From: a virus
Virus record (IMG/VR): IMGVR_UViG_3300007513_000041
Coordinates: 1-60,212 of that record
Direction: 5' to 3' (one strand)
Length of the DNA: 60,212 bases
Shown: positions 3,775 to 48,179 of the stretch, in pieces
How positions within the stretch are numbered: position 1 is the stretch's first letter
How the letters are laid out: every line of letters begins with the position of its first letter
Notes under the pieces: model-generated
Seen by the model: the letters and a program-made list of their open reading frames with translations, nothing else
What the model was told of the DNA's origin: nothing
The model's database searches: none
Translations under genes and position numbers: made by a program

Positions 3775-6700
3775 AGTAGGTATTGTTTTTCAGCCGAACA
3801 TATTTCAAAGTAATACATACCAAGATAATACTTGGGGTCTCAATGCATTTCAGAGAGGGGTATATCAATCCAATGTATTTGATACTATTCAGACCCTCCT
3901 AAAAGTAATAAATGAAACACTAACATCAACAGAAAATACAAACAAACTTAGAGTATTGATAAGGTTAGCGAATGAGAGTGTATCAATACAGCAGTTTAGA
4001 AAGAGAATCAGGGCTGTAATAAGACTGGTAGATGAAACTCTAGCTACACAAGAAGGTAAAACACATGTAAGAGGATTAATAAGATTATTAGATGAACAAG
4101 TATCAACAACAGACGTAGCAGTAAGACTAAGAAGTATGATTAAACTTCTAGCAGAGACGGAATCATTTGCAGAACAGAGAAATTTCAAGAAGACGATATT
4201 CCAAATTGTAAGTGAGACAATAGTTGTAGCATTTAAGGGAGTATTCCAGAATGATACGTTCCAGAATAATGCATTTACACAGGCATTAAAAGAACTGGTA
4301 ACTATTCGTGGAAGAAAGAAGATGGTAAATGAGAATGAAAATATTGTAAGATTAAGCAAACCATTCCAACAGAATACATATCAGAATAATGTATTCCAGT
4401 TAAGTTCAGAAGCAAATAAGGTAACTGGTTTAAGAAGGTTTATCAATGAAAGTATGTCAGTACAACAATTCAGGGCAAAAACTAGAGCAGTATTAAGAGC
4501 TGTTAATGAAACATTAGCATTAAGTGAAACAAGAGTAAAACTACAAGCATTAGTCAGACTGGCAAATGAAACTCAAGCAATACCAGAAACACAAAAGAGA
4601 ATAATGACATTACTTAAATTCTTAAATGAAACAGAATCAGTTCAGTCATTCAGAACAAGAATAAGACCACTATTAAAGGTTATATCAAATACAGTAAGTA
4701 TGTCAGAGACAATAAATCAGTTCAGAGGTATAGCAAGAATAATAAATAACACAATAAGCATTTCACAAACAGAACTTAGATTTACTGGATTCATGAAAAT
4801 GTTAACTGAGGGTGTGACAATACAAGAGTTTAGAACAAGACCAAGAGCCATACTCAAATTAATAGCAGACACGGTAAGTACAACAGAAAATCTATACAAG
4901 TCATGGGTAAAGAGAGTGAACAACACTGTTGCAACAACCGAATCATTAATACACCTACAGGCATTGATAAGATTATCCAATGAAGGAATATCAATACAGT
5001 CATTCAGATTAAGAGCAAAGACAATACTAAAGTTATTAAATGAAACATTATCATATACAGAGAATACATTATTCAGAAGAGGAATAGTAAGATCTGTTAT
5101 AGAGACACAGACAATAGCAGATGCATTCCACAGATTAAAAACAATAATAAGATCAGTGGTAGATACAGTATCAATACAGTCATTCAGAACACCAAGAAGA
5201 TCATTATTAAAGGTAATAAATAGCACAGTATATATATTAAAAACAAAGGCTTCAACATTCCAATACAACATATTCCAGAATGATCTGTTCCAGTTAGGAG
5301 AAGAGGCTTTACATGTAATAGGAATAAGGAGAATGATAAACGAGACTGTTGCAGGAACAGAATCATTTGCAAGAAGAGTTGCAATATTAGTTGCAGAGAC
5401 AATAGCCACCACAGAGAATTTGTTAAGAAGAAGGGCATTAGTAAGGTTAGCAAATGAGTCTGTATCAGTACAACAATTTAGGCAAAGACTTAGAGTGATA
5501 GTGAAAATGCTAGGTGAAACCGTAGTAACTACAGAAACGTTACTCAGAAGACTTGCTATATTAAGAGCATTCGCAGAAAACATGTCTGTTCAGGAAGGAA
5601 CTTTGGTCAGAAGGATATTAAGAAGAGTAATATCAAACATTGTATCTGTAGGAGATAATAGAATACCACTTCGTGCATTAAGAAGAATGATAAATGAAAC
5701 GGAATCTATTCAAAGCTTTAGGCAGAGAATTAAAACTATACGAAAACTTGTAACAGAGACAGTAGCGTCTACAGAAATATCTAGAACAATAAGAGGAAGA
5801 GTGAAGGCAGTTGCAGAAATCATTAATATAGTAAAGGCAGGTAGTGTATTCCAAAGCATGTTCCAGAACAGTGTGTTCCAGATAGGTAAGGAATATCATA
5901 AACTACAAACTCTAGGAAGGTTTGCTAATGAAACTGTATCGTTGGTTGACTCACAAGTAAGAAGATTATCAATTAGAAAACTTGTGGCTGAGACAGTTGC
6001 TGCTGTTGAAGACCTAATTCCAAGAGGGGTATTTGTAAGATTTGCGAACAGTACGGTTGCAATATCAGAGGGATTCATCAATAGATGGGTCAAGTTGGCA
6101 AACGAAATTGTAACCACTGCAGAGTCATTAGTACATTTACAGGCGTTAATAAGAATAGCAAACGACACAATATCAGTTCAAAGCTTCAGACAAAAAATAA
6201 GGGCAATAAGAAAATTAGTAGCAGAAACAGTGAGTTCGTCAGAAACAATGAATACAATACGTGGAAGAATTAAGAGTGTAATAGAAACAGTTGCTATAAA
6301 CGAATCATTGTTAAGGAGACTTGCTTTGGTTAAGTCTGTATCAAACACTGTAAGCATAGTAGAAACAAAACTAAGATTACTTGAAATATTAAGAAGTGTA
6401 GTAGAGACAGTAGGAATTGTAGAGTTGGTGGTAAAACTCAGAGGAATAGTCAGAAGTATATCTGAGACATCTGCAATATCTGATGCATTCAATAAATTAA
6501 GGGTTATAATAAGATTGGTAAACGAAAATATGTCACCTGTAGAAACATTATTACGAAGAATGACATTACTCAAGGCATTAGCAGAGAGTATATCAATACA
6601 ATCATTCAGAATCCCACAAAGATTGTTATTAAAGATGGTAAACAACACTGTATCATATGCAGAATCAATAATTAAACTCAGAGGATTGGGTAAGATAGTA

Positions 6701-7216
6701 AACTCTACAGTATCAATTTCAGAATCATTGTTAAGGGTACGTGTATTAGTAAGGATGGCTAACGAAACAGTATCAGTTCAGTCATTCAGAGAAAGAGTCA
6801 GGGCAATAAGAAAATTGGTAAGTGAGTCTGTTGGTATAAGCGAAGGATTTATCAATAGATGGGTAAAATATGTCGGTGAGACGGTATCATCTACAGAGTC
6901 AACATTCAAAAAACGTGTAATAATACCAATAGTAAATGAGGTAGTAGCAATAACAGAATCCATAAAAACATTTGCAGGATATATAAGATATTCCAATGAA
7001 GTGTTATCAATAGTAGAGAATATCACCAAAAACCTTCAATATGGTTTGGTTAAACAGAGTAGAACAGGTAGAATATTTGGAAGGGGAAAGACGGTGAAAG
7101 TATCAGATAAGACCAAAGATGTTAAACTAACCGATAAATCCAAGATTGGCAGACTAGCAGATAGGGTTAAAAATATAAAACTATTTAAGCGAGATAAGGG
7201 TGTAAAAGGAGTATAG
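3767..7216 (+). CDS. Giant repeat protein (about 20-residue NETVS repeats and FQxN blocks)
   Basis: 1149 residues, probably a virion structural protein. Most of it is made of imperfect units of 20-21 residues with the pattern NETVS..E....R...R, repeated some 45-50 times. Interspersed FQNNxFQ blocks occur near residues 8-38, 161-175, 198-211, 497-509 and 694-705. The last 45 residues are lysine-rich (KTVKVSDKTKDVKL). The regular hydrophobic-arginine spacing suggests a solenoid or a long helical rod. Position between fibres and a baseplate protein suggests a tail or baseplate-associated filament. The start overlaps the preceding gene by 8 nt. Confidence 0.65.
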   Translation: MAKVGIVFQPNIFQSNTYQDNTWGLNAFQRGVYQSNVFDTIQTLLKVINETLTSTENTNKLRVLIRLANESVSIQQFRKRIRAVIRLVDETLATQEGKTHVRGLIRLLDEQVSTTDVAVRLRSMIKLLAETESFAEQRNFKKTIFQIVSETIVVAFKGVFQNDTFQNNAFTQALKELVTIRGRKKMVNENENIVRLSKPFQQNTYQNNVFQLSSEANKVTGLRRFINESMSVQQFRAKTRAVLRAVNETLALSETRVKLQALVRLANETQAIPETQKRIMTLLKFLNETESVQSFRTRIRPLLKVISNTVSMSETINQFRGIARIINNTISISQTELRFTGFMKMLTEGVTIQEFRTRPRAILKLIADTVSTTENLYKSWVKRVNNTVATTESLIHLQALIRLSNEGISIQSFRLRAKTILKLLNETLSYTENTLFRRGIVRSVIETQTIADAFHRLKTIIRSVVDTVSIQSFRTPRRSLLKVINSTVYILKTKASTFQYNIFQNDLFQLGEEALHVIGIRRMINETVAGTESFARRVAILVAETIATTENLLRRRALVRLANESVSVQQFRQRLRVIVKMLGETVVTTETLLRRLAILRAFAENMSVQEGTLVRRILRRVISNIVSVGDNRIPLRALRRMINETESIQSFRQRIKTIRKLVTETVASTEISRTIRGRVKAVAEIINIVKAGSVFQSMFQNSVFQIGKEYHKLQTLGRFANETVSLVDSQVRRLSIRKLVAETVAAVEDLIPRGVFVRFANSTVAISEGFINRWVKLANEIVTTAESLVHLQALIRIANDTISVQSFRQKIRAIRKLVAETVSSSETMNTIRGRIKSVIETVAINESLLRRLALVKSVSNTVSIVETKLRLLEILRSVVETVGIVELVVKLRGIVRSISETSAISDAFNKLRVIIRLVNENMSPVETLLRRMTLLKALAESISIQSFRIPQRLLLKMVNNTVSYAESIIKLRGLGKIVNSTVSISESLLRVRVLVRMANETVSVQSFRERVRAIRKLVSESVGISEGFINRWVKYVGETVSSTESTFKKRVIIPIVNEVVAITESIKTFAGYIRYSNEVLSIVENITKNLQYGLVKQSRTGRIFGRGKTVKVSDKTKDVKLTDKSKIGRLADRVKNIKLFKRDKGVKGV

Positions 7217-7217
7217 G

Positions 7218-7571
7218 ATGTCTCAAAATCTATATCCAAGAGCAACGGAATACAGAGTAAAATCTGGAAGTAGGGCTACGTTAGAACTTACAATCCAAGA
7301 CTCTACAGGTACTGCAAAAAGCCTATCAAATGCAGTTACATATTCTACAGGTGTGTGGAAAGTATGGAAACCAGACGGAACACTGATAATTAATGGAGCT
7401 ATAACATACTCAGACAGAGCCAACGGTAAGGTATCATATGCATTATCAGCAACAGACACAGCAGTGGCTAATGCAGGTAATTGGGAGGGTGAAGTAGAAT
7501 TATTCAACTCAGCAGGAGTAATGTCAGAACAGACGAAATCTTTTAATTTCACCATTGAGGAGAGTTATTAA
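7218..7571 (+). CDS. BppU-like baseplate protein (Ig-like fold)
   Basis: 117 residues with the pattern of the N-terminal domain of phage baseplate upper proteins: a strand with SGSRATLELTIQDSTG, then VWKVWKPDGT and a final strand after WEGEVELF. Such domains anchor receptor-binding proteins to the baseplate. The gene starts one base after the stop of the giant repeat gene with a GGAG motif just upstream, and its stop overlaps the next ATG. Assignment rests on fold-like patterns, not on a catalytic motif. Confidence 0.55.
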   Translation: MSQNLYPRATEYRVKSGSRATLELTIQDSTGTAKSLSNAVTYSTGVWKVWKPDGTLIINGAITYSDRANGKVSYALSATDTAVANAGNWEGEVELFNSAGVMSEQTKSFNFTIEESY

Positions 7572-7717
7572 TGGCAGATTTAACAGTAATAGCATCAGGA
7601 ACATGCGAAGAATGTGGTCACACACAAACAGCACATGAAGGAAATAAGGGATGTAATGCACCAAACAACGATAACCCAAGCATTCCTTGTGGATGCGAAA
7701 ACATAGGCAGTTACTAA
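7571..7717 (+). CDS. 48-residue zinc-binding microprotein
   Basis: Short ORF starting at the TAATG overlap with the baseplate gene. It has CEECGH at residues 12-17 and a later C plus CGC near the end, a likely zinc site. Similar in layout to the protein at 1801. Function unknown. Confidence 0.5.
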   Translation: MADLTVIASGTCEECGHTQTAHEGNKGCNAPNNDNPSIPCGCENIGSY

Positions 7718-7748
7718 GGTTTATATTAGGAACATCATACAAAACTGT

Positions 7749-8510
7749 ATGATAAAACTACAGGATATAAGCGATAAAATATATTTTGATTTTAGGAAGT
7801 CTCAGGTTAAGGCTATGGAGACAGAAAGACTTGGTAAAATTCACGTATCTGATGTGATAAAACCATGTATGAGGAACGTCATATATAGTAAGATATTACC
7901 ACATACAGGTATGACAACCGAAGATATGAGAAGTCTATATCTAGGTCAGGCTATACATAATGCATCACAAGTAGGAGAATTAGATAATCATGAGATGTTT
8001 TTAGGTTATAATTATATTCGTGATGAGGTAGTCACATTAGATGAGGCTAAAAGAATACCAAAAGATGATCCAAAACATCTAGATATAATATATGGTTCTA
8101 TCGATGACTTGGTAAAAGTTGGTCAGGAGTGGGTTATTACTGATAAAAAAACTACAGGCTCTATAGATTACTTCTCAAGGTATAATGCAAAACCAAGTGA
8201 AAGTCATGTAGATCAAATAAATTGTTATCGAGTTTTGTTAAAAAAGTGTTACGATATTGACGCACATTACGGTGCTGTTATATATATGTCAAATGGAATA
8301 GACAAGGAGAAAAGAGATAAACCAGTAGTAATGCCATTTAAACTAAAGTCTGTTGACGAAACACTTGAAAAAATAATAAAGCAAGGAAGAATAATAAAGG
8401 CTTCACTTACAAAAAAGGTTTTACCTGAAAGAACAAAATGTTTCCTTTGTGATGGTATGTGTCCTTACGCAACAAAGTGCTTCACAGAGGAAAATGATTC
8501 ATTTGCCTAG
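7749..8510 (+). CDS. Cas4/RecB-like PD-(D/E)XK nuclease with Fe-S cysteines
   Basis: 253 residues, a single-strand DNA exonuclease of the RecB/Cas4 type. Visible motifs: first Fe-S cysteine C40 (KPCMRN), H70, metal site D119/D120 (GSIDDL), catalytic D132-x-K134 (ITDKK), the QxxxY motif at Q156-Y160, and the C-terminal cysteines C231, C234, C238 and C244. The layout and length match Cas4-like nucleases, which are common in archaeal viruses without CRISPR. It starts the operon that leads to TerL, so roles in DNA end processing for recombination or packaging are both possible. No CRISPR array is present. Confidence 0.8.
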   Translation: MIKLQDISDKIYFDFRKSQVKAMETERLGKIHVSDVIKPCMRNVIYSKILPHTGMTTEDMRSLYLGQAIHNASQVGELDNHEMFLGYNYIRDEVVTLDEAKRIPKDDPKHLDIIYGSIDDLVKVGQEWVITDKKTTGSIDYFSRYNAKPSESHVDQINCYRVLLKKCYDIDAHYGAVIYMSNGIDKEKRDKPVVMPFKLKSVDETLEKIIKQGRIIKASLTKKVLPERTKCFLCDGMCPYATKCFTEENDSFA

Positions 8511-16900: not shown

Positions 16901-17605
16901 TTATAATCCCAATACATCGACCATTATTCGTAGTTGTTCCATAGCTATGTTATACCAGTTATCTGATAATGCTTTCCATGAATCACGATCTGCTTCTACT
17001 TCTGCCTTTTCAGACGTTAGTGTTGAAACCTGTGATTCGAGAGATGATATCTGGTTGTCATATGATGTGGTATCAAATTCCTGTGCTTCTAATATAGTAA
17101 CTTGCTGTGTCAATGAGGAAACCTCAGTTTGCAGTAGTGCTATAGTCTCAAGTGCTGCAGTATATTCTGCAGTTATATCCATGAGTTCTTCCTGTATGTC
17201 TACCAAGTCATACGTTACGGTATCTTCTGATACACCCTGTTCACCACAAACTGTGATAACTAATGGTGTTGTCTCATAAGATCTGTCATAGTATGTATGT
17301 TCTCCACATGCGTTGAACTGAACTGTCCATGTTGGAGTCCAATTATCTATTAGATAACAACTCTCTTCAGTATATGGAACTGCGAATGGGTCGCTTATAC
17401 AGTGTGGTTCTAATTCCTGAACACTGCCATAGTCTCGCAGGTCTGTATTCTCAAACACAACTGAGTCATTTATATCAATAAGTAACTCAGTCTGACTGAA
17501 ACCATTGAGACCAACTTCGACTGTCTGTTCTTCTGCGTACGCAGTAGTGCCTGTTAGGACTACTAATCCTAGAAGAACTGCCAATACTGTTGTTGGTGTT
17601 TTCAT
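16901..17605 (-). CDS. Secreted cupredoxin-like protein with C-terminal coiled coil
   Basis: 234 residues. Signal peptide at 1-24 (hydrophobic LAVLLGLVVLTG then TAYA). Residues 28-122 look like a cupredoxin-fold domain (INDSVVFENTD, WTVQFNACGEHTYYD), as found in many thaumarchaeal plastocyanin-like proteins. Four cysteines (69, 83, 100, 120) may form disulfides. The usual type-1 copper set (H, C, H, M) is not complete: H68 and H103 are present but no clear Met ligand. Residues 135-215 are coiled coil. Likely on the host cell surface. It may be host-derived. Confidence 0.6.
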   Translation of the reverse strand: MKTPTTVLAVLLGLVVLTGTTAYAEEQTVEVGLNGFSQTELLIDINDSVVFENTDLRDYGSVQELEPHCISDPFAVPYTEESCYLIDNWTPTWTVQFNACGEHTYYDRSYETTPLVITVCGEQGVSEDTVTYDLVDIQEELMDITAEYTAALETIALLQTEVSSLTQQVTILEAQEFDTTSYDNQISSLESQVSTLTSEKAEVEADRDSWKALSDNWYNIAMEQLRIMVDVLGL

Positions 17606-18100: not shown

Positions 18101-18925
18101 ATGAATGTAAGGGTTATAGTAATTGTATTATGCATAGTATGTTTAGTATGGAGTAGTTTCATAGTGTTTGCTTATGCAGATAGGTTAGAAACTTTGGGAG
18201 TAAGACATAGGGATTCTCCTATTGTATGTATATTTGAGCCTAACCCTGAACATACAAGCAGTGTTACAGGAGTTATAAACACAACGGAGAATGCAATATC
18301 TGATTGGGAGTATGCTCTTAACAAACATTCACCAAATGGTAATTGGGATTTAATGACATTTGTAATACCGTTTGAATATCATGATAGACAATCAGTAAAG
18401 AATTACACCGTATGTAATATAATGATATCATTCGAGGAGTTCAATTTTACTAACAACAGTCTAGGATATGCATCAATAGATTTTTCAAAGTCTTCGCATA
18501 AATTCATACATATAGTTTCATTCCTAAATGGTTATGATAATAGTTTAAAAATTAATATGCCAAAGGTAATTATTGGCAAGGATACAAGTATTGATGAACC
18601 AGTGGTTATAACACTTGAAAGGGTAGAATATCCTTTGATTGGAATTAAGAATATATTAATTCATGAGATAGGTCATGGATTAGGATTAGGACATTACAGT
18701 ATAACAGATGCACCTATAGGTAATCCTTGGGATAGATCGGTTATGTATTATGCAATTAACCCATTCGATGATTATGAGATAAAACCAACATATGCTGACG
18801 TAAAACTTGCAGAAAAAATATATGGGGATGACGGATTTGAAGGATCTATACCTGCATTGATACCTAGAGTTAATTGGTACACAGTTGGAGATGTGGAAAT
18901 ATGCTCATTCAAATGCGATAAGTAG
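18101..18925 (+). CDS. Secreted matrixin-like metalloprotease
   Basis: 274 residues. Signal peptide or anchor at 1-25 (VIVIVLCIVCLVWSSFIVFA then YA). Zinc motif HEIGHGLGLGH at 188-198 matches HExxHxxGxxH of metzincins, and SVMYY at 213-217 is the Met-turn. It is a zinc endopeptidase expected outside the membrane. In a virus it could process surface layer proteins during entry or exit, or it may be acquired from the host, where such proteases occur. Leaderless start, TATA box at 18073. Confidence 0.8.
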   Translation: MNVRVIVIVLCIVCLVWSSFIVFAYADRLETLGVRHRDSPIVCIFEPNPEHTSSVTGVINTTENAISDWEYALNKHSPNGNWDLMTFVIPFEYHDRQSVKNYTVCNIMISFEEFNFTNNSLGYASIDFSKSSHKFIHIVSFLNGYDNSLKINMPKVIIGKDTSIDEPVVITLERVEYPLIGIKNILIHEIGHGLGLGHYSITDAPIGNPWDRSVMYYAINPFDDYEIKPTYADVKLAEKIYGDDGFEGSIPALIPRVNWYTVGDVEICSFKCDK

Positions 18926-26521: not shown

Positions 26522-26776
26522 ATGGCATTAATGACAGACTTTAAGCTGGGAAAGGATGATAATAGGGGTATATATTTTGAGGACACTGAGAGATGCCTCA
26601 TCTTCCTATCAATGCACGAAACCATAGAAGACGTTTATAAAACAATCACACATGAGGTATTACATCATTGTTTAGGCGATAAATGTAGTGTACAACCCAG
26701 CCTGAACGAAACGTTAGATGAGATACAGGAAGAGTTACTCATATTTAATATGCAGTGGGCTGATATTTCCCTCTGA
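26522..26776 (+). CDS. Small zincin-like protein (HExxH)
   Basis: 84 residues. HEVLH at 44-48 is a zincin metal motif, and a downstream acidic helix (LDEIQEELLIF) could give the third ligand. This size is typical of minimal phage zincin-like proteins rather than full proteases. It is one of only a few + strand genes in this - strand block and has its own promoter-like box. Activity is inferred. Confidence 0.55.
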   Translation: MALMTDFKLGKDDNRGIYFEDTERCLIFLSMHETIEDVYKTITHEVLHHCLGDKCSVQPSLNETLDEIQEELLIFNMQWADISL

Positions 26777-31230: not shown

Positions 31231-33141
31231 TTAATGCATAACCTCCTGAACAATCTTTCTGAACTCCTTAATAACAAACTTGCTTGCACCATTCATACCT
31301 GTAAATGATACATATCTCTTACCAAATATATCTTTCAACACCTCTCCATATTTCCAATGGTTTGATATGTCTATACATATTATACGAGGAGATATCCTTA
31401 GTGCTTTCTTCAACGCTTTCTTATTCATCTTAATGAGAACGCCTGTTGGTGTGTCTATGTTGTTCTTATAGTATTGTGGTACGCCATCTGTGATCATGAT
31501 TAATAGTTTCTTCCTGCCTTTCCTACCACGTAATTGTTTTGCACTATGAATTAATGCTTCGTGTGTAGGTGTGAACATATAACTATCATGAGTGTTTATC
31601 TTAGAACACTCTTTCAGATTATTGAATGTTGTTATACCTACGTTGCCCTCATAATCAGAAGACCAAACATTTCCTAGTAAGTCAATGTTCTGTACTTTTT
31701 CTGACGCTTTATATAATGTTGCAACTAAGTTGCGAGCGTCAGTCATACGACCACTATTACCCATAGATCCTGATCCGTCTATTGATATGAGAACAGTAGC
31801 ACCTGAGCTTAACTTCTCATTGATCATGCATGGATCATTAGACTGTCTTACCTTTCTGTTAATGAACGCTTCAATATTAACCTCATTCCCATAGTCGTCT
31901 ACGTTTGAAGTGAATTGTTCTGCAAGTTTAGTGAATGTCTTTTGTAGTATACGCGCTGTCTTAGTATCAACATTAACCTTACTCTCATTTCTGCCCACAT
32001 TTTTGATATGTGATGGTGTCATTGATCCCATTTTATTCATGGCTTCTATACTTGCTTTCATATGTTCAACCTCTTCTTTACCGTCTGCCTTATTGAAACC
32101 TACCTCAGTCTTATGTTCCTCTTCTGATTGTGATTCCATTTCTTTAGTTGATTCTAGTATCTCTTCTTGCTCTTCATCAAACACTTCACGTTGTTCCTGA
32201 GTCATATGATTTCTATGTTCGTTTACCATACCACCATGATCATGTGAGTATTTAGTGTTGTTGCTATTCCTCATGCTATTTGTTATCTTAGATTTCTTAT
32301 TGAAAACTTCTTGTTGCTGTTTCTTTAAAGAATCCTTTGCACTCTCAGCATTAGTCGCTTCTGATTCACTAGTTGTAGTTCGTAGTGTTTCTTGCGCAGT
32401 GTTAATACCTTTCTGTAGCTCACGTAGTTTTTCATTCTCATTTTTATAGTCGCGAAGCTTATCTTTTATGTATTCATCAATGTGTTTCTTAGCTCTAACC
32501 AAACATGTTAGCGCACCTCTTGTGCCTGTTTCCTTAACGTCTTCCATGATTTCATTAGCCCAATCTTCACTAAGACTAGGTTGAAAGAATCTAGAAGCCA
32601 ACATTTTATCTGTTGGTGTTAAGGTATACTTAGGATCAGTTGCTCTCATACGCTCGGTGTCTGATAGTAATCGTTTACCTAGATTGGTACGAGTTTCCTC
32701 AAACATCTTTTCTGTTCCTAACCACACATGTTTAGTTAATGATTCAATCCTTTGATCTTCAATGATATTGAATGCTAACATGTACTCGGACATTATTGAT
32801 TTCTTAATACTTGCAAGCCTGTCTGCACTTGCTTCATTAGCAAGTTCTTTATTGCCAGCGACTAAATCATTAGCCCAAGCAGTAGTTAAACCTTTGACAT
32901 TGGGTGCGAAACTATCCCACATTAAGTGAGATAGCTCGTGATATAATGCTGCCTTTCTATTGATTCCTTTCTCATTAGGTGTGCATATATTTATAATGTA
33001 TGTGTTGGCTTTATCAGCAGGTGTCACGTAATTGTTTGTGCCTCTTTGATACGTTAGATCTATTGATAGACCTTTGATATCTTCTATAATGTTTGCACGT
33101 TTCTTAAAGTATTCTTGATGTGTTAGATATTCTGTTTTCAT
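31231..33141 (-). CDS. CobT-like protein: zincin plus VWA domain
   Basis: 636 residues. N-terminal metalloprotease-like part with HELSH (68-72) and an NIIEDQRIE motif (125-133) that supplies an acidic ligand in VWA-linked zincins. The middle (230-345) is coiled and low-complexity. A von Willebrand A domain follows with MIDAS DGSGS (455-459) and a later ITDG. It resembles proteins called CobT in phages. No CobN large subunit is present, so a cobaltochelatase role is unlikely. It probably works with the AAA+ ATPase at 33833 as a remodelling or proteolysis pair. Confidence 0.75.
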   Translation of the reverse strand: MKTEYLTHQEYFKKRANIIEDIKGLSIDLTYQRGTNNYVTPADKANTYIINICTPNEKGINRKAALYHELSHLMWDSFAPNVKGLTTAWANDLVAGNKELANEASADRLASIKKSIMSEYMLAFNIIEDQRIESLTKHVWLGTEKMFEETRTNLGKRLLSDTERMRATDPKYTLTPTDKMLASRFFQPSLSEDWANEIMEDVKETGTRGALTCLVRAKKHIDEYIKDKLRDYKNENEKLRELQKGINTAQETLRTTTSESEATNAESAKDSLKKQQQEVFNKKSKITNSMRNSNNTKYSHDHGGMVNEHRNHMTQEQREVFDEEQEEILESTKEMESQSEEEHKTEVGFNKADGKEEVEHMKASIEAMNKMGSMTPSHIKNVGRNESKVNVDTKTARILQKTFTKLAEQFTSNVDDYGNEVNIEAFINRKVRQSNDPCMINEKLSSGATVLISIDGSGSMGNSGRMTDARNLVATLYKASEKVQNIDLLGNVWSSDYEGNVGITTFNNLKECSKINTHDSYMFTPTHEALIHSAKQLRGRKGRKKLLIMITDGVPQYYKNNIDTPTGVLIKMNKKALKKALRISPRIICIDISNHWKYGEVLKDIFGKRYVSFTGMNGASKFVIKEFRKIVQEVMH

Positions 33142-33142
33142 T

Positions 33143-33253
33143 TTAATCCCTGTCCTGCATGTAGTCTTCGAAGTCTACTTCAATACATACATAGTATGTA
33201 TCGACTACACCACAATGCTTACACTCTATCTCTTGTTCTGATTCTACTTCCAT
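33143..33253 (-). CDS. Zinc-finger microprotein
   Basis: 36 residues with CKHCG and a later C, acidic overall. It starts at the stop of the upstream gene and ends just before the cobT-like ATG. Confidence 0.45.
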   Translation of the reverse strand: MEVESEQEIECKHCGVVDTYYVCIEVDFEDYMQDRD

Positions 33254-33546
33254 TATATATCTACTCCATTCTTTTCTAAGAAGTCTTTTACTTTATCGAA
33301 GTCAATTTCCATTATCTCATTGTATGTGCTATACATTCTTTCTTTAGGATATATGTAGTAGTCACTGTAAAGATATCTTAATGTATCAAGTATCTCATCT
33401 TTCGTTGCATGATTCACAAACCTCGTTCTATCTGTAAGAGAATCCAATGCTCTCTCACAACTAAGTAGTTCATACTTTAGATGTTCTACATGTGGCTTAA
33501 GTAAGTCAACAGCATAATCCCTATCCTTAATGATCATCTTAGTCAT
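33253..33546 (-). CDS. Helical hypothetical protein in the AAA+/VWA operon
   Basis: 97 residues, helical (LLKPHVEHLKYELLSCERALDS) with tyrosine-rich middle (YLYSDYYIYP). No family recognised. Overlaps the next upstream gene by 4 nt; conserved placement between the ATPase and VWA genes may indicate a partner. Confidence 0.45.
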   Translation of the reverse strand: MTKMIIKDRDYAVDLLKPHVEHLKYELLSCERALDSLTDRTRFVNHATKDEILDTLRYLYSDYYIYPKERMYSTYNEIMEIDFDKVKDFLEKNGVDI

Positions 33547-33836
33547 GCCCGTGCCTCCTCATCATCATAGATAAGTAATGCACGTTCGAACTCGCCCTCA
33601 TACTTATCGTTGATAATGTATTGAAACTCATACTTCACATCAACTATGTGTCGTGTCAATATGTTTGTACCGTTGATAATAAATTTCTTTCTTAATCCGT
33701 TGGGATCAAACAATGGTACAAGACTAATGAACTCATTGATCTGTTCGTCAATAGGTATAGTGTTCTTGATTGTAGGTGGTTTACTCTCTTCCCTAAGTTT
33801 AGGGAAGAAGAGTTTAACCTTACGAACGCTGGTCAT
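33543..33836 (-). CDS. Hypothetical protein in the AAA+/VWA operon
   Basis: 97 residues, mixed alpha/beta, starts basic (TSVRKVKLFFPKLREE) and ends acidic (LLIYDDEEARA). 4-nt overlap with the AAA+ gene. Family not recognised. Confidence 0.45.
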   Translation of the reverse strand: MTSVRKVKLFFPKLREESKPPTIKNTIPIDEQINEFISLVPLFDPNGLRKKFIINGTNILTRHIVDVKYEFQYIINDKYEGEFERALLIYDDEEARA

Positions 33837-35008
33837 AACGTGATACCAAATGTATCTGCTATGGAATTCTTTATGAACTCACGTTCAGTTGCGTCTCCAT
33901 ACTTAACAAGTAAGCATGTTTTAATACACTTCCTCTTGAGCTGATCTCCATCTAGTCCGTCTTTCAACCATACTCTATACATGTCTGTGAACTGTACTAT
34001 ATCTCTAGGAGATAATACATACTCGACATCTCCTTTCACTCTAGAACTGTGTGTGTCCTGAACTACCTGAAGTAATGGAGCTGATACGTCATCAGGAATA
34101 TCCTCCCAATTAATTATCTTGTCCAAGTCTTTACTTGATGGGTAATCCCATACTGCACCAACATATCTAGACCTCAAGTCTTCTGTCAACTGATTCACAC
34201 CTGCATAATAACTAGGATTCATTGATGATATAACAATCAACTTACAATCATCATCTAATTTGAATTGTTTGTTGTTTGCTACTACCATATGTCTGTCGTC
34301 TAATACAGGGTTAAGTATCTTCTGCATTTCAGGCTCAAGTGCGTTAACTTCATCTAAGTATAGGCATGCTTTCTTATACTTGTTGGCACATAGTATTGCT
34401 CTTGGCAATACACCTAGATCAAAGTACGATCCGTTCTCATCTACTTGTGATCTACCTAAGAGATCTCCCTCTCTTGTACCACTAGAACAAGCATGAAATA
34501 CTAAGTGAGTCTGCGTATCATAAGACACATCATAAACACACAACGTCTTACCTAATCCTTTATCTCCCTCAATGAGATAAGGATATGGTATGTCCATTGT
34601 GAATTGTTTAAGTAGGTCTTGTCTTTCGTCATCTATCTCAATATAATTACCCCATTTATAAGGCTTGTATTGATCGAAGTCTACGACACCGAACTTTGTT
34701 GTATGATTACCTGTCTGATTAGGCTTAGATTGTTTGACTTCCTCTACTACCTGTTGAGTTTCCTGTACCTGTTGCTTAGGGTTAAGGATCTCTTCAATAG
34801 ACATAGCTGATTCTACTGTTGCTACTTCAGGTGTAGGCTCTCCCATGTGTAAGCCCTTAATATATTCTAAGAACTCAGGCGATCTTACTAACTCAGTATA
34901 ATGTTGCGCTCTGTCTTCAGCTACACTCTTACGTGTGAAATTATCGCGCGCTATCTCCCTTGCTTTCAATGTCAATTCGTATCTTAACTCTTCATCTGTT
35001 TGTGTCAT
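33833..35008 (-). CDS. CobS/MoxR-like AAA+ ATPase
   Basis: 391 residues. Disordered N-terminus (to about 105), then an AAA+ module: Walker A GDKGLGKT (148-155), Walker B CLYLDE (215-220), sensor-1 N264 (SSMNPS) and arginine finger region LRSRYVG (278-284). The insert after Walker A (GTREGDLLGR) is typical of CobS/MoxR ATPases, which pair with VWA proteins. The partner is the zincin-VWA protein downstream in the same operon. It likely drives conformational work on a substrate complex. Confidence 0.85.
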   Translation of the reverse strand: MTQTDEELRYELTLKAREIARDNFTRKSVAEDRAQHYTELVRSPEFLEYIKGLHMGEPTPEVATVESAMSIEEILNPKQQVQETQQVVEEVKQSKPNQTGNHTTKFGVVDFDQYKPYKWGNYIEIDDERQDLLKQFTMDIPYPYLIEGDKGLGKTLCVYDVSYDTQTHLVFHACSSGTREGDLLGRSQVDENGSYFDLGVLPRAILCANKYKKACLYLDEVNALEPEMQKILNPVLDDRHMVVANNKQFKLDDDCKLIVISSMNPSYYAGVNQLTEDLRSRYVGAVWDYPSSKDLDKIINWEDIPDDVSAPLLQVVQDTHSSRVKGDVEYVLSPRDIVQFTDMYRVWLKDGLDGDQLKRKCIKTCLLVKYGDATEREFIKNSIADTFGITL

Positions 35009-35406
35009 TATCTATTTTCCTCACGCCAATTACTTTGTGAGTGATTGTGCTTATACTTATGAGATTCTCCCATGATCTTACCGATTTCATCATCTAATAT
35101 CTTTGTGGATTTATAAGCCTCTTCTCCTATAATACCCATGACCTCTACGATATCTTGATTCATAAATCTATTGAATGATTCACTCGCGATACCTAGTTTT
35201 GTACCAACTCTATCATGCAAGTCATTCATATAGTCTGCACCTAACTTACGCGTTTCAATAGCTGCGCCTTCATTATGTGATCTCTTCTCGGCACTTGTTA
35301 TTGTCTGTCTTATAATCTCAGCGATTGCATTTAGATAACCAAATGTAAATGCTGTGACCTCTCCTCTAGTCATGTCATGATCTGAGGGTAAACTACTTGT
35401 GTTCAT
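35008..35406 (-). CDS. Helical hypothetical protein
   Basis: 132 residues, all-helical, with EVTAFTFGYLNAIAEIIRQTI and a polar His/Asn-rich C-terminus (KHNHSQSNW). Overlaps the ATPase by 1 nt. Possibly a substrate adaptor of the AAA+ pair, by position only. Confidence 0.45.
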   Translation of the reverse strand: MNTSSLPSDHDMTRGEVTAFTFGYLNAIAEIIRQTITSAEKRSHNEGAAIETRKLGADYMNDLHDRVGTKLGIASESFNRFMNQDIVEVMGIIGEEAYKSTKILDDEIGKIMGESHKYKHNHSQSNWREENR

Positions 35407-35624
35407 TTACTTTCTACCTCATCTTCTTCAGTCAATTCGTCAAGCTTATCATCAAGTTCATCAATCTGATCTTCATGATCTTCAACCGTAGACTCAAGAC
35501 CATCACATTTATCTTCAAGCTCAGCAAGCCTTTCTACTATTGATTCCAAAGCATACTCTTCTAATGCATTAAGTCTATTATGCAAAGAATCCAATGCTTC
35601 TTCCATCATTTTCTTGTCCGTCAT
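35403..35624 (-). CDS. Coiled-coil protein
   Basis: 73 residues from ATG 35624, chosen because a TATATAATA box lies about 25-30 nt upstream. One long acidic coiled coil (ALESIVERLAELEDK, DQIDELDDKLDEL). First gene of the AAA+/VWA operon. Confidence 0.5.
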   Translation of the reverse strand: MTDKKMMEEALDSLHNRLNALEEYALESIVERLAELEDKCDGLESTVEDHEDQIDELDDKLDELTEEDEVESK

Positions 35625-35730
35625 CTTAATCACGCTACTGATTACATGTATTATATATCTAAGCGATACCCACCACCTCGGTTGCACTTAGAAGTGCTAC
35701 AAAACATGAACTGATTACATTGTTCATCAT

Positions 35731-46341: not shown

Positions 46342-46965
46342 ATGGCAGACGAAGAAAAACCAAAATTCGAAGAAAGCTCTAATGACGAAGAAGAGACGGA
46401 AGCAAAAGAAGAGAGTTCTGAAGAATCACAACGTGAAGATTCAGAAAAATCATTCGTAGAAGCAGTCAAATCAACATTCGGAGACATATCTGAGCAATTA
46501 AGCACAGTAGTTGACTCCCAAAAAAGTATCATTGATGCTGTAACCTCTATTAATACTAGAGTTAAAGCACTTGAAAAACCAACAGACTTGGCTTTGAGTC
46601 CAAAAGGAACTCAAGGTGGAGACGATGTTGGAGCTTCAGTAAAAGTTCCTGAAGAACCTTATCCACAAGGTCAGCAAGCCAAACTGGATGATGACGGAAA
46701 GGAAACAACCAATGATCAGTCAAAACTGTCAATTCAGGGTGCTATAGGCAAATCTGAATTAGTTGCAAAGTCTGAACACTCATTTACTACAGAAACTCCA
46801 AGACCAAACGCAGCCTTGGAAACAGTAGATAAATCTGCATCTGACCTCAGTCCAATACTGAAAGATGCAAGAGAAGCTGGTTTTGAGTCACTTTCAACAG
46901 TAGCTCAAAATATTCTGAAAGGTAAATATTACCAACCAAACGCAGACGAGGTAGGTAGATACTAA
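46342..46965 (+). CDS. Scaffold-like acidic protein
   Basis: 207 residues. The first 35 are very acidic (EESSNDEEETEAKEESS), followed by a coiled-coil region (SEQLSTVVDSQKSIIDAV) and a disordered middle. Position between protease and capsid is the usual place of a scaffolding protein. Its stop overlaps the MCP start. Confidence 0.6.
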   Translation: MADEEKPKFEESSNDEEETEAKEESSEESQREDSEKSFVEAVKSTFGDISEQLSTVVDSQKSIIDAVTSINTRVKALEKPTDLALSPKGTQGGDDVGASVKVPEEPYPQGQQAKLDDDGKETTNDQSKLSIQGAIGKSELVAKSEHSFTTETPRPNAALETVDKSASDLSPILKDAREAGFESLSTVAQNILKGKYYQPNADEVGRY

Positions 46966-48179
46966 TGGTTCAGATAAAAACTATTGACGAATTAGAAGCA
47001 CTGTATTACGGATACAATAGAAACCTTTTGAGAAAAGCTGATGCACCAGCAACAACCTCCACAGCAGGCGTTTTCAACGCAATCTTTGGAGCATATGCAT
47101 GGGCGCAACTTAACTTAGAAGCAAACGCATTCGGTATTTTACCCAAGTATCCTTGGGATAAATCTGGATGGAGGGTTATTACTGCAAAACCTGTGCTAAA
47201 CACTACAAATGCTAACACAGCATTAGGTGGTACAGCAGAAGGTGGACTCATTGCTGAAACAGTGAAGCCAACACTCCAAGAAATAGATGTTAGACCAAAG
47301 ACAGCACAACTGCCTTTCTCAGCATCAGAAGTAATGGAATGGTTAGCAACACACAGCAAAGACGACATTTGGGGTGGACTTGGTTCACTTCGATTGTATA
47401 TGGCAGTACAACACAAAGAATTCCTTAACAGGATGCTCTTAGCAGACGTTGAAGGTAACGTATCTTCAGGTGCATTCGGTGGTACAACCGATTTCGAGTC
47501 ACTTGATAGAATTGTTTCATCTAACGCAGAAGAAACTGCATTAGGAGGAAGTGGCAGTGGGGAATATGACCCTTGGGCTGCTAACGCAACCATCGACAGA
47601 GACTCTAGCTCAGCATTCGATTGTACAGTTGAAAGTGCCAGTGGCACTATCGGTACAAACGGTGTTTTGACAGACGACACTTTACGAACTTTCCTTAGAA
47701 AGATTCGTATCGCTGCAGGTAAAGACCCAAACGTGTTCTTAGGCTCTCACGAAGTATACTCCGAGATACAAGGTCTATATATGCCTTCAGTCCGTATTCC
47801 AAACCCATACGGTGAAAGCTTAGTACAGATTGATGTAAACGGAATCCAGACCTTTAAGGGAACTGGCGTTGGTATACATGTGGACTCCATTTATGGAATT
47901 CCATTCATTCCAAGCAAAGATGCACCAAGCGATGCTGGCGATTCAAGTGAAATCGGCAGATTATTTGCATTTGATACATCTGATGCAGAGGGATATGGTT
48001 ATCCAAGAATTGGAATTCAGATCGCAATCCCAACAGAATACTACGAAGCTACTCGCAGAAGTCCAGCATATCCATTTGTCAACAATGCATTTGTTGAGAA
48101 AGGTGTATTCAGGACAATGGGAGAAACTGTCTGTAGACACTTCAAGTCACAGGGAAAAATAAGAGATATAAAACTTTAG
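46965..48179 (+). CDS. Major capsid protein, HK97 fold
   Basis: 404 residues. N-terminal helical arm, then the alpha/beta core: GGTAEGGLIAET/RPKTAQLPF (P-domain/E-loop region) and a C-terminal half with VFLGSHEVYSEIQG, PFIPSKDAP and RIGIQIAIPTEYYEATRRSP. Size and position after the protease/scaffold genes are typical. Forms the icosahedral shell. A strong terminator follows. Confidence 0.85.
   Translation: MVQIKTIDELEALYYGYNRNLLRKADAPATTSTAGVFNAIFGAYAWAQLNLEANAFGILPKYPWDKSGWRVITAKPVLNTTNANTALGGTAEGGLIAETVKPTLQEIDVRPKTAQLPFSASEVMEWLATHSKDDIWGGLGSLRLYMAVQHKEFLNRMLLADVEGNVSSGAFGGTTDFESLDRIVSSNAEETALGGSGSGEYDPWAANATIDRDSSSAFDCTVESASGTIGTNGVLTDDTLRTFLRKIRIAAGKDPNVFLGSHEVYSEIQGLYMPSVRIPNPYGESLVQIDVNGIQTFKGTGVGIHVDSIYGIPFIPSKDAPSDAGDSSEIGRLFAFDTSDAEGYGYPRIGIQIAIPTEYYEATRRSPAYPFVNNAFVEKGVFRTMGETVCRHFKSQGKIRDIKL

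Follow-up and report, generated by a model that had tools for sequence, protein, structure and literature searches.

The virus record IMGVR_UViG_3300007513_000041 (60,212 nucleotides; its whole length is referred to below as the window) is a single contig of a tailed archaeal virus and carries on its minus strand a pair of genes encoding a MoxR/NorQ/CobS-type AAA+ ATPase and a protein that joins a zincin-like N-terminal domain (N-domain) to a C-terminal von Willebrand factor A (VWA) domain. We consider, with moderate confidence, that this pair is an ATP-driven remodelling machine with a built-in metalloprotease, most likely acting early on replication and recombination proteins. This reading rests on the sequence motifs, their invariance, the pairing of the two genes, an N-domain fold shared among viruses, relatives of the NorQ/NorD kind and the replication genes in the neighbourhood; from these we infer that the two proteins form a complex, bind zinc and cut a substrate, as well as the early timing and the target.

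The two open reading frames (ORFs), with the HELSH and NIIEDQRIE motifs, the VWA domain and the MoxR/CobS-type ATPase, lie exactly where the initial annotation had placed them (Table 1). The VWA protein comprises a metallopeptidase-like N-domain (residues ~1–240), a long helical linker (~209–371) and the C-terminal VWA domain (~379–636), which contains a TDG at residues 551–553 in addition to the metal ion-dependent adhesion site (MIDAS) motif; Pfam gives both a VWA and a CobT_C match for this protein, each of them weak. The AlphaFold2 model of the N-domain (mean predicted local distance difference test score, pLDDT, 93.2; predicted template modelling score, pTM, 0.89) has HELSH and the ED motif in separate helices. 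It displays the zincin pattern, with HELSH in helix 62–74 and E128, a candidate third zinc ligand, in the downstream helix 106–136. When this model was compared with viral structures, the matches of probability 1.0 were CobT or VWFA proteins and an HHTV-2 protein. In the full-length model (pLDDT 84.7, pTM 0.58) the N-domain, the long helices and the VWA domain are visible, and the best matches among solved structures are the NorD VWA chains of NorQ–NorD complexes (E 1.1e-8), followed by Rea1/midasin. The AAA+ protein matches Pfam AAA_5 (8.7e-18), is near phrog_249 ('porphyrin biosynthesis', the phage CobS family; 4e-21) and has CbbQ/NorQ as its closest solved relatives by sequence (1.9e-13). 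The likeness to NorQ–NorD, the MoxR AAA+/VWA activator of nitric oxide reductase, thus involves both proteins, but the matched NorD chains span the VWA part only, and for the VWA protein the likeness concerns that part.

Table 1. Coordinates of the gene pair, its motifs and the small ORFs of the same strand in the window.
Feature	Position	Strand	Remarks
Zincin-VWA protein, 636 aa	31231..33141	-	Invariant residues, AlphaFold2 models, fold matches
HELSH motif, residues 68-72	32926..32940	-	Predicted zinc-binding helix 62-74; HExxH in 38/38 covering relatives
NIIEDQRIE motif, residues 125-133	32743..32769	-	On helix 106-136
MIDAS motif DGSGSM, residues 455-460 of VWA domain	31762..31779	-	
AAA+ ATPase, MoxR/NorQ/CobS type, 391 aa	33833..35008	-	Walker A GDKGLGKT, Walker B YLDE
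36-aa ORF, three Cys, between pair	33143..33253	-	88% identical in close relative L131; no other match
97-aa ORF between pair, no known family	33253..33546	-	Match in L131 only, 30% identity
97-aa ORF between pair, no known family	33543..33836	-	Match in L131 only, 56% identity
132-aa ORF directly upstream of AAA gene	35008..35406	-	Match in L131 only, 59% identity
94-aa coiled-coil ORF, upstream	35403..35687	-	Generic coiled-coil matches; none among relatives

The relatives are IMG/VR records, and most are ~30% identical to the window VWA protein. One of them (L002) has the same operon, at 67–68% and 86% identity; further contigs with the pair at ~30–46% identity were reached via a capsid-gene search of virus records, and a profile scan gave 45 loci, 39 of which contain the VWA protein. 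HExxH, NxxEDQR(I/V)E and MIDAS are all kept in every one of the 38 relatives whose sequence includes the N-terminal part. Because the scan used the patterns EDQRIES and SIDGS[GQ]SM, the ED and MIDAS counts are partly a product of the search itself; HExxH was absent from these patterns. In an alignment of 34 N-domain sequences (~240 residues) 15 columns are invariant in all, nine of them being H68, E69, H72, N125, E128, D129, Q130, R131 and E133, and in the VWA domain the MIDAS residues D455, S457, S459 and D552 are invariant and T526 almost so. Since the motifs are invariant across 34 divergent homologues, 32 of them just 26–37% identical to the window protein, they are not due to chance, and the picture in the initial annotation of a MoxR-type AAA+ protein with a VWA partner bearing an intact zincin-type site is borne out. 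The pattern of N-domain invariance looks like that of an active site, short of proof of activity. In 35 loci the AAA gene lies upstream of the VWA gene and in the same orientation, and the two genes often abut or overlap there. One relative (G014) seemed to be without the pair, but its contig ends inside the corresponding stretch, and it does not count as a case of absence. A tblastn search of phage genomes with the VWA protein gave no match even at E 10, VWA relatives being reached solely through the profile patterns and by tracing the CobS neighbour, and PADLOC gave no useful match.

The same architecture is present in other virus lineages, where HExxH is kept in 12 of the 12 proteins checked; the loss of HExxH in homologues, which the initial annotation had named as evidence that would refute it, was sought both there and among the marine relatives and found in neither. 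Cyanophage 'peptidases' (T4-GC 146, phrog_459) combine HEVGH, VNVLEDARIE or VNVIEDARIE, and DWSGSM in one protein adjacent to a CobS-like AAA protein (phrog_249), and so resemble the window pair in HExxH, ED motif, MIDAS and AAA neighbour, but they have no pairwise tblastn similarity to the window VWA protein and their acidic linkers are longer. Phages of Gordonia, Rhodococcus and Tsukamurella have HELGH, HEISH, HELAH and HEIGH. The layout is also carried by a Rhizobium phage and by SSU5-type phage-plasmids of Salmonella, Klebsiella and E. coli, a group in which HEVAH or HEVGH occurs with LEDVFIE, LEDVYIE or VEDVMIE. A haloarchaeal virus has HECGH, then WNAAEDGAIE and then DRSSSM; the CobST of haloarchaeal tailed viruses (Druskaviridae, HCTV-1), so named by Liu et al. 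(2021), shares the motifs and the adjacent AAA gene with the window pair, but is very divergent in sequence and belongs to a host group that has CobN. The residues following ED differ between virus lineages. Comparison of N-domain profiles connects these lineages; as pairwise values without database correction, it gave 94% for marine–actinophage, 84% for marine–SSU5, 72% for marine–cyanophage, 95% for cyanophage–SSU5 and 98% for SSU5–haloarchaeal. Two genes near AAA matches were discarded as unrelated, namely gene 5898–8084 of Microbacterium phage Cece, which is rIIA-like, and gp55 of Staphylococcus phage 812, which is PcfJ-like.

RadA and MCM each lie ~2–5 kb from the VWA gene in 26 related loci, and the ~6-kb flanks of the related loci contain no homologue of the window terminase large subunit (TerL), portal or major capsid protein (MCP). 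The marine loci share their gene order and hence represent one lineage. A replication-gene context is seen in independent lineages as well, with gp46, gp45 and gp44 beside the pair in cyanophages and DNA polymerase III alpha beside it in SSU5-type and Rhizobium phages. Because these neighbours are replication genes, involvement of the pair in replication or in an early takeover is favoured over virion assembly, on circumstantial grounds. In the proposed mechanism the AAA+ protein would assemble into a ring like those of MoxR and NorQ. The VWA protein would dock on this ring in the manner of NorD on NorQ, by the C-terminal domain with the MIDAS, and would present the substrate. The N-domain, held on the long helical linker, would be a zincin-type zinc metallopeptidase (HExxH plus a glutamate helix, N-x-x-E-D) and would cut the pulled or remodelled substrate. 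Such a machine would most likely act early, with viral or host DNA replication and recombination proteins as its targets.

The idea of this pair with a metallopeptidase has already been proposed, as a MoxR and metallopeptidase-vWA chaperone pair in jumbo phages (Iyer et al., 2021; PMC7824862). The group 2.2 jumbo phages possess, by the description in that paper, a MoxR AAA+ protein and an N-terminal metallopeptidase-vWA arrangement. Both traits are found in the window, where a MoxR-type AAA+ gene is paired with a VWA gene, as in the 35 related loci, and a metallopeptidase domain, with invariant motifs and a confident separate model, stands N-terminal to VWA. The window virus differs in being archaeal and in having its pair beside replication rather than structural genes. 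The pair therefore belongs to a described but uncharacterised kind, represented by the jumbo-phage proteins and the marthavirus 'CobS'; new are an active site kept intact throughout the family, its degenerate state in cellular CobT and the linkage to replication, not structural, genes.

Several points weigh against a protease machine acting in replication. The protease activity of the VWA protein is itself a prediction. Among solved structures the N-domain model has no significant match, the top two in the PDB being the archaeal metallopeptidase zymogens abylysin and jannalysin, both weak (E 0.34 and 0.46). Neighbouring genes indicate function only weakly, and the flanks are just ~6 kb; three Cys-free or Cys-poor small ORFs of the operon lack an explanation; and for the jumbo-phage pair Iyer et al. 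(2021; PMC7824862) favour virion assembly. The published proposal for this domain architecture is a machine of virion assembly or maturation that acts in the folding or processing of structural proteins, on the model of the MoxR-VWA pair in Acidianus two-tailed virus (PMC7824862), and the motifs are compatible with proteolytic maturation. Such a role appears rather unlikely for the window, however, as the genes within ~6 kb of the pair in relatives include RadA and MCM and none of the three structural homologues, and the cyanophage and SSU5-type pairs likewise adjoin replication genes. The weak match of the N-domain to PDB proteases would also suit a remodeller of the NorQ/NorD kind with an N-domain that binds metal without cutting, for example in metal insertion into or removal from a target, and the nearest solved machine, NorQ–NorD, does activate a metalloenzyme. 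The catalytic-type glutamate of HExxH, which is unneeded for zinc binding alone, is nevertheless strictly invariant, and we regard a non-cutting N-domain as improbable.

Liu et al. (2021; PMC8651126) took viral cobST genes to assist the CobN of the host, in which case the pair would supply CobS and CobT subunits of a cobaltochelatase, borrow CobN from the host and raise B12 synthesis. The distant homology to CobT/CobS, the strong PF06213 and PF11775 matches of SSU5-type proteins and the possession of CobN by haloarchaeal and cyanobacterial hosts, as seen in the Haloferax volcanii and S. elongatus controls, all speak for this. CobN (PF02514) was not found in the window record, which may be incomplete, in agreement with the initial annotation that a large chelatase subunit is missing. 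Nor was it found in the E. coli control genome, yet the pair occurs in this species: one phage that carries it is recorded from E. coli K-12, and of 5426 complete E. coli genomes 219 have it, without exception on plasmids. (NCBI annotates the SSU5-type VWA protein in E. coli genomes as 'cobaltochelatase CobT-related protein'.) Thaumarchaeota, the likely hosts of the window virus, have been reported to lack CobG, CobF and CobNST (Doxey et al., PMC4303638). The window VWA protein has no match to PF06213 (CobT N-terminal) at E up to 1, on which the S. meliloti CobT N-domain scores 3.9e-89, and its match to PF11775 (CobT_C; E 0.029, 14.5 bits) is under the 21-bit cut-off, so that no CobT cut-off is passed; PF12556 (CobS_N), present in S. 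meliloti CobS (2.4e-17), is absent from the window AAA protein. HExxH, moreover, is lost in the three cellular CobT proteins sampled and kept in every viral version examined. Given the E. coli control without CobN and the Thaumarchaeota reported without CobNST, cobalt chelation by the window pair is unlikely, and the view in the initial annotation that the pair is not tied to cobalamin is supported; that it borrows a host CobN strikes us as very improbable. Chelation may take place in haloarchaeal and cyanobacterial hosts.

The cellular CobT/CobS pair shares with the window pair the order of N-domain, linker and VWA domain, the AAA neighbour and a VWA profile match of 71%, but in it HExxH and ED are replaced, and the window proteins are without PF06213 and CobS_N. 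The three annotated cellular CobT proteins sampled, all alphaproteobacterial, have CHDxxVH or CHDEKMH in place of HExxH, and EQ in place of ED; judged from these residues, the cellular N-domain looks inactivated. The SSU5 N-domain (HEVAH) matches Pfam CobT (8.6e-27), and the SSU5 and cellular CobT N-domains are therefore homologous. In an unrooted, small VWA tree cellular CobT groups with the SSU5/Rhizobium-phage proteins (96%), and on that placement loss of HExxH in the cellular branch is the simpler reading. We tentatively suggest that the viral 'CobST' of bacterial and archaeal tailed viruses may be a widespread ATP-dependent metalloprotease of the replication module and bacterial CobT its catalytically dead relative. 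Many papers on viral ecology tally the genes of the pair among B12 auxiliary metabolic genes. If the intact protease site and the CobN-less hosts are as they appear, the B12 reading would be wrong for at least part of viral CobST; cyanophages, archaeal viruses and E. coli phage-plasmids would carry an ATP-dependent viral protease or remodeller, and the odd N-terminal domain of CobT would have a hint as to its origin.

The initial annotation had further assigned small zinc, helical and coiled-coil proteins to a dedicated complex with the pair, encoded in a single operon with its own promoter. The intervening ORFs of the window were not found in relatives other than L131. The others carry unlike small ORFs between the two genes, many of them rich in Cys, or none where the genes abut or overlap, and the small ORFs are no conserved part of the machine. 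Co-occurrence of the operon in related viruses, a check that the initial annotation had proposed, holds for the AAA/VWA pairing in its 35 loci and fails for the small ORFs. The case for the 36-aa ORF as a zinc microprotein is weak, with three Cys only, and membership of the 132-aa and coiled-coil ORFs in the system is not supported. An operon is plausible: adjacent ORFs abut or share a few bases, and the same-strand chain runs past both sides of the pair, from 36678 down to 30333. A promoter of its own was not found by a scan for sigma-70-type sites, the matches of which (37, versus 43.8 ± 6.1 in shuffles) show no excess.

An 84-aa protein of the window (26522–26776, plus strand), weakly DUF3920-like, has an HExxH (HEVLH), and its HExxH homologue occurs in 34 of 39 related loci, mostly 0.5–1.7 kb downstream of the VWA gene, as a second small zincin-like protein close to the pair. 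It is echoed in HCTV-1, where a SprT-like zincin (33698–34357) lies ~1.4 kb from the CobS/CobT pair. A 274-aa protein (18101–18925, plus strand) has an apparent signal peptide and a matrixin-type HEIGHGLGLGH (Peptidase_M10, 1.6e-5). A 234-aa protein (16901–17605, minus strand) likewise has an apparent signal peptide; it matches no Pfam family and is cupredoxin-like as judged by eye only, and relatives of it lie near the pair in four loci.

The nearest named relative of the window terminase is that of Halogranum tailed virus 1 (33% identity). The host is probably a marine ammonia-oxidising archaeon, the virus being likened by gene content to the marthaviruses, which infect Marine Group I Thaumarchaeota and typically carry radA, ATPases and CobS (PMC7678222); compared by gene list, the window has their counterparts in RadA, MCM helicase and the CobS-like AAA protein. 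Scans of cellular genomes gave no relative of the VWA protein and, for RadA, a Woesearchaeota locus as the sole match, so the host is not tied to the virus by sequence. A 404-aa protein (46965–48179, plus strand) was taken as the MCP from its position and abundance. Its relatives are encoded on 343 virus contigs, the best 80 at ~89–100% identity, and the virus group is therefore common in the sea.

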